A stretch of DNA of 64,000 bases from Microbacterium aerolatum (GTDB taxonomy: Bacteria; Actinomycetota; Actinomycetes; Actinomycetales; Microbacteriaceae). A program made the position numbers and the translations under genes. Under the pieces are notes generated by a model. It had not been told where the DNA came from, searched no databases, and worked only from the letters and a program-made list of their open reading frames with translations. Location: NCBI RefSeq assembly GCF_007988825.1, contig NZ_BJUW01000002.1:62001-126000 (forward strand). The letters run 5' to 3'. Shown here in pieces: positions 59,841 through 63,831 of this stretch; within the stretch, counting starts at the first letter, position 1, and each line of letters opens with the position of its first letter.

Positions 59841-60896
59841 GTGACCTCGACTCGGATCGCCGCCGGTGCACGGCGCACGGCGTGGGTGCCCGTCGTCGCG
59901 GGTGGGCTGTGCGGTGTGATCGCCGCAGTCGTCTACGGCATCATGCTCGGGCTGCCGTTGAGCGTCTTCTCGCTCTTGCTGATCGGCGGATCCGGTCTAC
60001 TGATCGGCGTCGTGCCGATGGGACTGGTCCTGCTCGCCTCGGCCCTGTCCGCGCCCATTCCTCGGACCCTCGTGATCTCGGGGGCGGCATCGGTCGCACT
60101 CGCCGCCTTGGCGTCCTGGGTGCTGACCCGCGGCCATTACTTCGTGCCGATGGTCGCCACGGCGGCGGTGACGACCGTTGTGCACATCTCCGCCGCTCGT
60201 GCCGCTGCCGGCCGGCCAGGCGGCAGACCGGCCGCGCGAGACGCCGACACGTCGATCACGGCGCGTGTTCTCACTCTGATCGTCGGGGGATTCGTCGCGC
60301 TGTTCACGTCGCTGGGCGCGATCGGGATGCTGCGCGAACAGCTTCACTTCGGGTGTTCCTACGGCACCGAGGGTGAGGCTGCCGGTGCTTGGATGTGTGC
60401 CGACGGCATCGGCTACATCTTTCCCGGCCTCACGCTCCTGTTCGGATCTGCCGTCGCGCTGCTGAGCGGGATCCTCGTACTGCTCGGTGCACGAGGAGAG
60501 AGCACCCGGGCGCGCACTCTCACGGTCCTCGCGTTCGTACCGCTGCTGTGGTCAGCCGGCTGGCTCGGCACAGTGACGCTCCCGCGCGCCGACCCGCTGC
60601 CGGATGGTGAGACCTGGTTGAGCGTCTGGGTGATCAATGTCGGCATCGGAACGCTGCTCGCCGTTGCGGGCGCGACTCTCGCGGCTTCCGCACCGGTGCG
60701 GCGTGGTCGAGTCTCCAGGCTCTTGTGGATCGCGGCCGGCACGCTCCTCGCCGCCGCCACGATCGCGCAGCCAGGGCTCGCGGTGGCGACGTTCGCCGCC
60801 GCATCGCTGTTCGCCGCCGCGCGGCTGATTCCGGCCCTCGCTCAGACAGCGCCGCCTTCCGCAGGCGATGAGCGCGACAGAATCAACGCGGGTTGA
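59841..60896 (+). CDS. Polytopic membrane protein, unknown
   Basis: A 351-residue integral membrane protein with about nine hydrophobic segments. A soluble stretch around residues 120-145 ([15 protein letters not shown]) splits it. The FGCSYGTEGEAAGAWMCADGIGYIFPG loop contains two cysteines that could pair extracytoplasmically. No transporter or enzyme family is recognised. Leaderless GTG start. The end overlaps the convergent dehydrogenase gene by 14 bp. Confidence 0.75.
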   Translation: MTSTRIAAGARRTAWVPVVAGGLCGVIAAVVYGIMLGLPLSVFSLLLIGGSGLLIGVVPMGLVLLASALSAPIPRTLVISGAASVALAALASWVLTRGHYFVPMVATAAVTTVVHISAARAAAGRPGGRPAARDADTSITARVLTLIVGGFVALFTSLGAIGMLREQLHFGCSYGTEGEAAGAWMCADGIGYIFPGLTLLFGSAVALLSGILVLLGARGESTRARTLTVLAFVPLLWSAGWLGTVTLPRADPLPDGETWLSVWVINVGIGTLLAVAGATLAASAPVRRGRVSRLLWIAAGTLLAAATIAQPGLAVATFAAASLFAAARLIPALAQTAPPSAGDERDRINAG

Positions 60897-61971
60897 TCGC
60901 GACGCGCAGGGGCGCTCCCGGTGCGGATGCCGCGGCGATCGCCTCATCCACCTCGGCGAGCGCGAACACCTCCCCGACGACTTCCGCGAATGGGTAGGCG
61001 CGTCCCGTGCCGGTCAGGAACCCCGCCGCGGCCGCCAGCTCCCTTCCGGTGTAGTTGTGCACGCCGGCGATCGTGAGCAGGCGCCGCACGGCATCCTCCG
61101 CGTCGAACGGCACGCGGTCGGCGGGGAAGACGCTGCCGACCAGCACGGCCGTTCCTCCGACGTCCGCCGCGGCGATCGCGTCGGCGACGGCATGACCGGA
61201 TGCTTCGATCACGATGTCCGCCGGGGCCATCGGTGCCGTCGCGGCTGTCCCTCCGAATCGCTCGGCGAACGCCCTGCGCTGCGCCGACGGATCGATCACG
61301 GTGACCTGAGCGCCGGCATCCGCGGCGATCGCCACCGCCGACAGCCCGACGAGCCCGGCGCCGTAGACGAGGACGCGCACGCCCTCGAGCGGGCGCCCCG
61401 CGGCTCCGCGGCTGACGGCGGCCCACGCGGTCGCCGTCGCGCATGACGCAGGTGCGAGTACGGCAGACGGCAGCGCTTCGGGCACGCGCACGATCGCGGT
61501 GCCTGCGCGCAGGTGGACGTGGCTGGCGAATCCTCCGGTCAGCTCCCAGCGCGGACCGATCCGTTCGTGACCGTACTTGGCGAGCGTCCGGCATTTCTGC
61601 GTAAAGCCCGCCGTGCATCGGTCGCACTCGCCGCACGAGACCGTCACCGACCACACCACACGATCGCCGAGGCGCAGTTCGACCCCGTCGACAGACTTCA
61701 CGCCGTGCTCCCCGAGCGCGATGATCCTGCCGACACTCTCGTGGCCAAGCACCAGCGGGGCAGGTGCCGAGCGATGGCCTGCGACGGTGTGCACATCCGA
61801 CCCGCAGATGGTCGACAGCTCAACCGCGACCAGGGCGTCGTTGTAACCGAGGGCGACCCCGGGAACGGCGACCGTCTCGTGCGCCTGTCCGGCGCCGAGC
61901 CACACCCGCGCTGTGGCGGCGGGCCTCAGATTGACGTCGTACCGCGCCTCGTGCGGCGCCAGCACCCGCAT
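60883..61971 (-). CDS. Zinc-type dehydrogenase of a phosphonate-catabolism cassette
   Basis: MDR-family zinc-dependent dehydrogenase of 362 residues. The catalytic zinc ligands lie in ICGSDVH and GHESVGR. The structural zinc site is CGECDRCTAGFTQKC. The Rossmann motif is VYGAGLVGLSA. Linkage to a phosphonatase-like and an FAD oxidoreductase gene matches the alcohol dehydrogenase family defined by phosphonate operons (TIGR03366, recalled from memory). It is the third gene, 1 bp after the phosphonatase stop. It probably oxidises or reduces an aldehyde product or acts on a hydroxyphosphonate. Substrate unproven. Confidence 0.85.
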   Translation of the reverse strand: MRVLAPHEARYDVNLRPAATARVWLGAGQAHETVAVPGVALGYNDALVAVELSTICGSDVHTVAGHRSAPAPLVLGHESVGRIIALGEHGVKSVDGVELRLGDRVVWSVTVSCGECDRCTAGFTQKCRTLAKYGHERIGPRWELTGGFASHVHLRAGTAIVRVPEALPSAVLAPASCATATAWAAVSRGAAGRPLEGVRVLVYGAGLVGLSAVAIAADAGAQVTVIDPSAQRRAFAERFGGTAATAPMAPADIVIEASGHAVADAIAAADVGGTAVLVGSVFPADRVPFDAEDAVRRLLTIAGVHNYTGRELAAAAGFLTGTGRAYPFAEVVGEVFALAEVDEAIAAASAPGAPLRVAINPR

Positions 61972-62680: not shown

Positions 62681-63831
62681 GATTCTCCTCCTGGTGCGAG
62701 CTGTGGGGCCCGTTCGATTGCTGTTCGAAGCGTGTGCTCGGCAAGGCCGAGACCACAGGTCATGCCGATGCCGGTGGTCGCAGCGATCACGTGCAGGCCG
62801 GGTTCCGGCTCCTCGATGAGGAACTCATCCGGCCCGGATGCGTAGACGCCCTGCCATCGCTCGATCACGCGGATGCTGTCCATCTCGAACAGCGCACGCG
62901 CTTCTTCGAGGAAGGCATCGAACGCGGCTTCCGGCTGGAACGGACCGGGCTGGATCGCGCGGCGGTGCGAGTCGCCGAGTATGAGCGTGCCGTCCGGCAG
63001 CTGCGTGTACATCTGATTCAGATCGAGCGCGGCGAGATCGGGGCGTTCGGCGTGCATCCGCTCGCGCAGCGCGGCGGTCTCGGCGTAGCCACCGAACCGG
63101 CCGTAGCGCAGCAGCGACCAGCCCGTGAGGAGCGGCGCCTCGAGTGCGCGCGGCATCGTCGCGCTGACTCGCATCATGTCGAGGGCGCAGCGGATGACGC
63201 CGACCTGCTCTGCGAGATCGGGAAGGAGCTGGTCGATGTCGTGTCCGATCGCGACGACGACCCGGCCGGCGTCGATCGCGCCGCGCGTGGTCTCGACGCG
63301 GATGCCGGACACCGCTGTGACGGCGGTACGGAAGCGGAATTCGACCCCGAGTGCGGTCAGGTGACGCACGATCGCGCCGACGGCTTCGCGCGGGTCGGTC
63401 TGCAGGTCGGACTCGATGTGCGCACCTCCGACGACGGCACCCGCGCGCAGCGGGGCACGGTGCCGCAGCTCTCCGGCGGTCAGCATCCGAACGCCGCCGT
63501 CCACGGAGGCGCGCTCGAGCACCGCGAGCTCGTCGATGCGGCTTGCAGCGATCAGGGTTCCGGATTCCCGCAGCCAGAATCCGGCGTCCGTCGACAGACG
63601 CAGCCATGTCTCCCGCGCGGTATCTGCGAAGTCACGGGCGAGGCCGGTCTGGGCGCCGATGCACAGGTGGCCGAAGTTGCGGATCGTCGCGCCGACCGGC
63701 GATGCCGTGCGATCGACGACGATCACGCGCAGACCACGACGCACGGCGGCGTATGCCGCGCCGAGACCGACGATGCCGGCGCCGACGACCACGAGATCAG
63801 CGGTATCTGAGGCCACGGAGTGACGCGACAT
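62677..63831 (-). CDS. FAD-dependent aminophosphonate oxidoreductase-like protein
   Basis: D-amino-acid-oxidase-like flavoenzyme (DAO family) of 384 residues. An N-terminal FAD motif DLVVVGAGIVGLGAAYAAVRRG and the ERWQGVYASGPDEFLIEEPEPGLHVIAATTGIGMT C-terminal block match the group linked to phosphonatase-like proteins (TIGR03364). By that definition it should oxidatively deaminate an aminophosphonate to the aldehyde cleaved by the next enzyme. ATG 63829-63831 (MSRHS), with GAAAGG 7 nt upstream. First gene of the cassette within the window. Confidence 0.87.
   Translation of the reverse strand: MSRHSVASDTADLVVVGAGIVGLGAAYAAVRRGLRVIVVDRTASPVGATIRNFGHLCIGAQTGLARDFADTARETWLRLSTDAGFWLRESGTLIAASRIDELAVLERASVDGGVRMLTAGELRHRAPLRAGAVVGGAHIESDLQTDPREAVGAIVRHLTALGVEFRFRTAVTAVSGIRVETTRGAIDAGRVVVAIGHDIDQLLPDLAEQVGVIRCALDMMRVSATMPRALEAPLLTGWSLLRYGRFGGYAETAALRERMHAERPDLAALDLNQMYTQLPDGTLILGDSHRRAIQPGPFQPEAAFDAFLEEARALFEMDSIRVIERWQGVYASGPDEFLIEEPEPGLHVIAATTGIGMTCGLGLAEHTLRTAIERAPQLAPGGES

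Follow-up and report, generated by a model that had tools for sequence, protein, structure and literature searches.

The 64,000-nucleotide window analysed here (Microbacterium aerolatum, contig NZ_BJUW01000002.1, positions 62,001 to 126,000) carries on its minus strand three co-directional, touching genes (60883-63831) that encode, in order of transcription, a flavin adenine dinucleotide (FAD)-dependent oxidoreductase, a PhnX-like HAD hydrolase and a zinc-dependent dehydrogenase, HpnZ, as well as a separate phnD-phnC-phnE importer operon. The gene set most likely scavenges phosphorus from aminophosphonates. The cassette is real and conserved. It varies the PbfD-PhnX route known from the literature by adding a third, uncharacterised enzyme; the FAD enzyme and the HAD can be placed in that route, and the interest lies in the dehydrogenase. 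On balance, we favour a hydrolytic phosphonate pathway, probably under Pho (phosphate-starvation) control, in which HpnZ would open an entry from a hydroxyphosphonate to phosphonoacetaldehyde (PAA). We infer all three reactions and their regulation from gene order, protein families, residue conservation, co-occurrence and a shared upstream repeat, each of which is observed.

In the proposed pathway, PhnDCE would import small phosphonates. By analogy with characterised PbfD enzymes, the FAD enzyme would use oxygen to convert N-methyl-2-aminoethylphosphonate (M1AEP) and/or 2-aminoethylphosphonate (AEP) to PAA, methylamine or ammonia, and hydrogen peroxide. The HAD hydrolase, judged by PhnX and by its conserved residues, would hold PAA as a Schiff base on K56 and cleave the C-P bond on D10, releasing phosphate and acetaldehyde. 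Gene context suggests that HpnZ, with NAD(P)+, may oxidise a hydroxyphosphonate, most simply 2-hydroxyethylphosphonate, to PAA, which would give the C-P cleavage step another source of substrate.

An earlier note on this DNA had described three overlapping or abutting genes for aminophosphonate breakdown, and the layout is confirmed while the reading is partly supported. The end of the FAD frame shares 4 bases with the start of the HAD frame, and a single base separates the HAD gene from the dehydrogenase gene. The FAD oxidoreductase (62677-63831, minus strand) is 384 aa long from its ATG, with an in-frame GTG at 63864 as a possible alternative start. It scores 361.7 bits against TIGR03364 (HpnW_proposed, PbfD-like; curated cut-off 285.1) and 147 bits against PF01266, which agrees with its earlier placement in the DAO family. 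PbfD enzymes oxidise M1AEP and AEP with oxygen to PAA; PbfD1 of A. baumannii carries the TIGR03364 annotation, both PbfD1 and PbfD2 turn M1AEP or AEP into PAA, and a pathway of PbfD2 and PhnX without PhnW has been described (excerpts of PMC10590968). The suggestion that an oxidase replaces the transaminase PhnW here and that the substrate may be N-methylated was well judged. Because oxidase entry has been published for the PbfD enzymes, it is not new in kind, and the FAD enzyme of the window is a new member of an established kind. A similar adjacency is found in Achromobacter, where hpnW adjoins phnX (PMC11203657, in excerpt). Like the PbfD-PhnX pathway, the cassette would combine an FAD oxidase giving PAA with a HAD that cleaves it, and it has no phnW; unlike it, the window has a HAD of the PhnX-like family, an extra zinc dehydrogenase, a PhnDCE importer and an actinobacterial host.

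The absence of phnW and C-P lyase genes, first claimed for the window, extends to the whole genome (3.23 Mb in 28 contigs, rated 100% complete). PhnJ of C-P lyase gave zero matches genome-wide with a positive E. coli control, and the best PhnW score in the genome was 58.5 bits against a cut-off of 400.8. The idea of a C-P lyase or PhnW located elsewhere in the genome was rejected, none being over cut-off. There is also no second strong PhnX-like HAD in the genome, the next TIGR03351 match scoring 53.1 bits with 16 of 16 candidates scored.

The HAD hydrolase (61973-62680, minus strand, 235 aa) had been assigned in the earlier note to TIGR03351, and its two partners to TIGR03364 and TIGR03366. 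The partners exceed their cut-offs, whereas the HAD, for which TIGR03351 is indeed the best family, scores 217.8 bits against a cut-off of 218.9 and falls 1.1 bits short; several HADs of relatives likewise score 209-217 bits. It contains the D10-M-A-G-T nucleophile motif and the cap lysine K56, and we take a D-x-A-G-T motif with a cap lysine to be what defines TIGR03351. The catalytic set of PhnX is presumably D12, M49, K53, H56, R160 and D186. In an alignment to a segment of the PhnX chain, D12, M49 and K53 correspond to D10, M52 and K56 and are kept, as are R160 and D186, whereas H56 is replaced by V59 and Y128 by F. To the earlier description of the protein as phosphonatase-like, with its nucleophile and Schiff-base lysine, it has to be added that the score is just under the family cut-off and that the histidine is replaced. 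Against TIGR01422, the classical PhnX family, the HAD reaches 71.2 bits (cut-off 220). The proposed pathway shares with classical PhnWX a central PAA intermediate and a Schiff-base HAD; it differs in that no PhnW of the genome passes the cut-off and in the low PhnX score and missing His56 of the HAD.

Retention of the catalytic residues was followed in 100 HADs from fetched loci. The loci were hand-picked from hit lists, with nearby meaning gene centres within 7 kb and with type A and type B HAD labels taken from our own profiles; duplicates L066, L091 and L134 (of L135 and L069) were removed before locus and repeat counts. The counts come from related loci and carry no phylogenetic correction. 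The D/K/D set is intact in 75 of 75 HADs with an FAD gene nearby and in 8 of 8 whose only nearby partner is phnDCE, and it is lost in 9 of 11 type A HADs that have neither nearby (L124, on a 4 kb contig stopping just before its HAD, is excluded; the HAD starts of L079, L124 and L149 were reset by the reading frame upstream). The two lone type A HADs that keep the set are L052 and L055, the latter with other changes. Three of the nine that lose it (L056, L057 and L058) have an FAD gene elsewhere in the genome. Lone type B HADs keep the set in 4 of 4 cases, as does the type B HAD of genome G344. Because retention of the catalytic set depends on the partner genes, a joint phosphonate role for the HAD is supported. 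Among the 75, the sister species L059 has the D/K/D columns but altered residues between them (R160 is L). This cluster, from the genus of the window, is seemingly decaying, with its HAD called at 193 aa and its hpnZ matched only partly. The HAD genes of L053-L058, L088 and L128-L130 lie mostly at a purQS-purC locus; nine of these lack the catalytic Asp and/or Lys, their frames are open and dN/dS is 0.22-0.38 (ten pairs compared), as if the catalytically stripped proteins were maintained as pseudo-enzymes.

The third gene (60883-61971, minus strand) encodes a medium-chain dehydrogenase of 362 aa that is by score a full member of TIGR03366 (HpnZ_proposed; 357.6 bits, cut-off 328.1). C56, H77, E78 and C177 together with C113, C116, C119 and C127 are invariant in all 21 aligned rows, orphans included (20 distinct loci copies and the duplicate L091), and in 22 of 22. 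We take these eight positions to be the ligands of both zinc sites. A predicted model adopts an alcohol dehydrogenase fold (pLDDT 93.7) with 1vj0 as its top match (Z 44.8, root-mean-square deviation 1.8, 342 aligned), and the fold search returned only general alcohol and polyol dehydrogenases, with no pointer to substrate. The remark that the dehydrogenase has no clear role in the standard route was correct, the function of TIGR03366 being only a proposed one. The TIGRFAM text of TIGR03351 reportedly names zinc dehydrogenases and PhnCDE as neighbours.

No report of HpnZ function or of a catabolic 2-hydroxyethylphosphonate dehydrogenase was found in the open-access papers searched (subscription papers lay outside the search). 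The word 'hydroxyethyl' has zero occurrences in the text of PMC10574752, as has 'hydroxyethylphosph' in that of PMC8154272, and excerpts of PMC9381506 name phpC (forming) and hepD as 2-hydroxyethylphosphonate genes and no catabolic dehydrogenase. Excerpts of PMC12366243 remark that a reaction oxidising 2-hydroxyethylphosphonate would link up 'seamlessly' with the hydrolytic pathways; this reaction was weighed for PbfF, thought less likely, and PbfF is described as a racemase. PbfF (an HAEP racemase) resembles HpnZ as a 'dehydrogenase' gene recurring in AEP clusters for which 2-hydroxyethylphosphonate oxidation was once weighed. The two differ in family, PbfF being PF02826 and HpnZ a zinc medium-chain dehydrogenase (PF08240/PF00107), and an identity of HpnZ with the PbfF racemase is ruled out.

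The genomic neighbourhoods tie the cassette to phosphonates. Among 249 genomes of the family of the window, the FAD enzyme is over cut-off in 68, and 67 of these have a HAD match (E 1e-25); HpnZ is over cut-off in 41, with a HAD in 37 and the FAD enzyme in 34. In the loci examined that have FAD, HAD and HpnZ genes, phnD and phnE lie nearby in 26 of 29, usually in the one-strand order phnD-phnC-phnE-FAD-HAD-hpnZ, and the exceptions are the window, L062 and L064. The cassette-phosphonate link is strong, and the neighbourhood comparison that had been proposed as a way to expose a lack of any phosphonate synteny instead places phnDCE beside the cassette. The separation of importer and cassette emphasised in the earlier note is real in the window, where phnD-phnC-phnE sits 12 kb away, but it is only local. 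In a second arrangement, the FAD gene is divergent from (GntR)-HAD, next to a different ABC transporter and without HpnZ; a Tsukamurella plasmid of this kind encodes a TIGR03364 protein, a phosphonatase-like hydrolase and a transporter whose genes carry a 2-aminoethylphosphonate annotation. The comparison also took in another actinobacterial family, here called f6, among whose named relatives Rhodococcus, Gordonia and Mycobacterium have clusters of this type. Of its 36 hpnZ loci, 34 have the gene clustered with phnDCE, and in 28 of the 36 it directly follows phnE (HpnZ of L138 and L157 placed from coordinates). All 36 f6 genomes have a HAD match, and 34 have TIGR03364, the exceptions being G298 and G344. 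Six f6 loci (L138, L140, L143, L145, L146 and L148) have the order HAD-phnD-phnC-phnE-hpnZ with the FAD gene of the genome beyond the fetched stretch, and in L097 and L144 hpnZ lies with the importer while the HAD of the genome is elsewhere, beside the FAD gene.

The HpnZ context was followed further in the named loci, that is, the best 80 among the matches listed, 16 of which lie outside Actinomycetota. A PAA-linked gene was recognised with our own profiles or NCBIfam in 9 of these 16 (L220, L225, L233, L234, L236, L239, L240, L242 and L247) and in none of the other seven, two of which are on contigs shorter than 7 kb; the NCBIfam check covered L225, L247 and L242. In L242, a metagenome-assembled genome (MAG) of Anaerolineae, the order is phnW-phnA-phnY-hpnZ with all four over cut-off (PhnW 467.2, PhnA 520.8 against 407.55, PhnY 756.4 against 635.65, HpnZ 340.2 against 328.1). 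In the planctomycete MAG L225, hpnZ is followed by a TIGR03364 gene and a classical phnX (TIGR03366 380.7 against 328.1, TIGR03364 420.2, PhnX 345 against 220), and in L247 (Maribellus) phnW precedes HAD-hpnZ (PhnW 570.7 against 400.8, HpnZ 341.2, HAD 181.6 and thus under the TIGR03351 cut-off). In the f6 genomes G298 and G344, both HpnZ and a HAD with intact catalytic residues are present; neither genome gave a TIGR03364 match at E 1e-30 (first-look candidates scored: 39 of 147 in G298, 39 of 122 in G344) or a PhnW over cut-off, with PbfA, PbfB and PbfC not searched. PAA is what these contexts have in common, and once G298 and G344 are added, formation of PAA by HpnZ is the simplest reading. 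The substrate would then be 2-hydroxyethylphosphonate, because its oxidation yields PAA.

The contexts thus suggest that HpnZ acts in PAA chemistry and not in that of acetaldehyde, and that it most likely oxidises 2-hydroxyethylphosphonate. The wider proposal, offered tentatively and with more doubt than the pathway as a whole, is that HpnZ may be the missing catabolic dehydrogenase for 2-hydroxyethylphosphonate, or a related hydroxyalkylphosphonate. It occurs in Actinomycetota, Planctomycetes, Chloroflexi and Bacteroidota and would supply PAA to whichever enzyme is present, PhnX, a PhnX-like HAD or PhnYA. 2-Hydroxyethylphosphonate and methylphosphonate together are put at up to 20% of the phosphorus in marine high-molecular-weight organic matter (PMC9381506, in excerpt); if HpnZ acts on the former, there would be a direct C-P-lyase-free route from that compound to phosphate.

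The most serious competitor, which we nevertheless consider unlikely, is that HpnZ has no phosphonate substrate and uses NADH to reduce the acetaldehyde released by the HAD to ethanol. The position of hpnZ, usually directly 3' of the HAD gene in the family of the window, would suit such disposal, as would the general alcohol dehydrogenases that are its closest solved structures and families. Disposal fits poorly with L242, where HpnZ sits with phnW-phnA-phnY, a route whose product is acetate (excerpts of PMC8154272), and with f6, where hpnZ so often directly follows phnE and in L097 and L144 accompanies the importer with the HAD elsewhere; moreover, of the 67 genomes that have both FAD and HAD, 33 manage without HpnZ.

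Somewhat less probable again is a reductive HpnZ, which would convert excess PAA to 2-hydroxyethylphosphonate for safety or for making hydroxyphosphonates. This alternative draws on the same PAA link as the oxidative reading, and a reaction of this kind is known from the PAA reductase PhpC, which makes 2-hydroxyethylphosphonate from PAA in the reverse of the reaction proposed for HpnZ. PhpC is related to Fe-alcohol dehydrogenases, a difference from the zinc-type HpnZ that is drawn by description only, and phpC in 2-AEP catabolism operons has been suggested to turn 2-AEP into 2-hydroxyethylphosphonate (both from excerpts of PMC9381506). A reductive role leaves unexplained the combination of HAD and HpnZ with no detected amino-side entry in G298 and G344, and the PHO-box-like repeat described below suits phosphorus release better than storage.

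A PHO-box-like direct repeat, GTTCA-N6-GTTCA, occurs exactly twice in the window (0.02 expected), once per operon. One copy (63951-63966, minus strand) lies 120 bases 5' of the FAD ATG at 63831, or 87 from the GTG at 63864; the other (48553-48568, minus strand) lies 114 bases 5' of phnD at its codon-usage start. The whole genome has six sites and none for the pattern read backwards. Twenty-two of 28 sites in 110 fetched loci, and 12 of 12 in the best 80 named loci, are directly 5' of cassette or importer operons, and a looser pattern was found at the starts of 16 of 145 operons, compared with 11 among 1465 other genes (Fisher test applied); the loci are related, the two sets may share genomes and the tests ignore phylogeny. 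In the canonical Streptomyces Pho box, GTTCACCC is directly repeated two or more times and the CA pairs lie 9 bp apart (PMC7244524, in excerpt); the repeats of the window fit it in core and spacing and only partly in the outer bases. Both operons are therefore probably under Pho control through these putative boxes, and such control would make the 12 kb between them no longer puzzling. Three lone hpnZ genes (L122, L173 and L186), with no HAD or FAD gene in the fetched stretch, also have a PHO-box-like repeat upstream.

The importer comprises phnD (47501-48439, start by codon usage, longest frame from 48667), phnC for the ATP-binding subunit (46560-47459; TIGR02315, 286 bits, cut-off 266.1) and a double-length, fused permease gene phnE (44734-46563; two TIGR01097 stretches, 385.9 bits against 216.7), all on the minus strand. 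PhnD, a phosphonate-type substrate-binding protein, passes Pfam PF12974 (111.5 bits) but is under the cut-offs of TIGR03431 (116.4 against 261.1) and TIGR01098 (105.6 against 112.05). This shortfall would be compatible with a phosphate transporter unrelated to the cassette, and actinobacteria often carry phnCDE without C-P lyase, for which a 2021 review suggests that the importers may serve phosphate (excerpts of PMC7866108). Such an unrelated transporter is nonetheless improbable here, given the shared clusters in 26 of 29 loci of the family of the window and 34 of 36 f6 HpnZ loci, the rare repeat common to both operons, and a fused PhnE of the same type as most cassette-adjoining PhnE in the family. 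The clusters described here would instead give many phnCDE-bearing actinobacteria a hydrolytic phosphonate route.

Very improbable, finally, is a cassette for 1-hydroxy-2-aminoethylphosphonate, in which the FAD enzyme would form hydroxy-PAA for the HAD to cleave and HpnZ would handle a product: the HAD pocket does differ from that of PhnX (H56 to V, Y128 to F), but the substrate, listed as a candidate in the earlier note, goes back to a guess in old TIGR03364 text, quoted in excerpts of PMC10590968, which is not evidence; the characterised PbfD enzymes oxidise M1AEP and AEP (same source, whose excerpts give no result for plain 1-hydroxy-AEP), and HpnZ pairs also with classical PhnX and PhnWYA, both PAA-acting.

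Several observations weigh against a Pho-controlled pathway with HpnZ as a hydroxyphosphonate entry, besides the role suggested for phpC above. HpnZ is dispensable, being under cut-off or absent in 33 of the 67 FAD and HAD genomes, and at times occurs without a HAD match (4 of 41 HpnZ genomes), so it may have another job. The case against acetaldehyde disposal leans mainly on the single phnWYA MAG contig, L242, and the FAD search in G298 and G344 scored 39 of 147 and 39 of 122 candidates; PbfA, PbfB and PbfC are other possible PAA sources there. The HAD is itself under the TIGR03351 cut-off and without the PhnX His56. As for regulation, the strict repeat is missing from the majority of operons (the 110 loci have 22 operon-linked sites; 16 of 145 starts with the looser pattern), and repeat orientation is mixed (12 the same and 10 opposite in the 110 loci; 1 and 11 in the 80 named loci). 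With a degenerate pattern and one mismatch allowed, the window has 1 site where 0.29 would be expected, which is not significant, so the case for Pho control rests on the core pattern. The other four sites of the genome are not next to genes that could be tied to phosphate: one (L248:1501) is flanked by genes for an NTP transferase and an ABC ATPase, and the remaining three are near genes given no closer identification.

Other genes recur around these clusters. In the genome of the window, the adjoining gene upstream of the cassette, beyond the window edge, encodes a histidine kinase and is ~300 bases away, and the gene downstream is convergent. Several loci of the family of the window have a gene for an EamA-family permease 5' of either phnDCE or the FAD gene (L006:10203-11069, equal to 66202-67068 and beyond the window; L168:5136-5997); the permease might carry a compound of the pathway into or out of the cell. 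A DUF5690 (PF18943) protein, a candidate phosphonate transporter, is encoded beside hpnZ in the planctomycete (L225:6630-7952) and beside phnW in Maribellus (L247:2412-3722), and amidohydrolase-like genes lie directly 3' of hpnZ in Pseudonocardia (L217:8954-10087) and in L069 (9975-11093). A lower-identity zinc dehydrogenase of Rubrobacter has a neighbourhood without phosphonate genes. The plasmid collection contains two Streptomyces HpnZ homologues without listed genes; by our own profiles, one of them is preceded by a GntR gene and followed ~2.6 kb on by importer-like genes, and nothing within 8 kb of it matches the FAD or HAD families.

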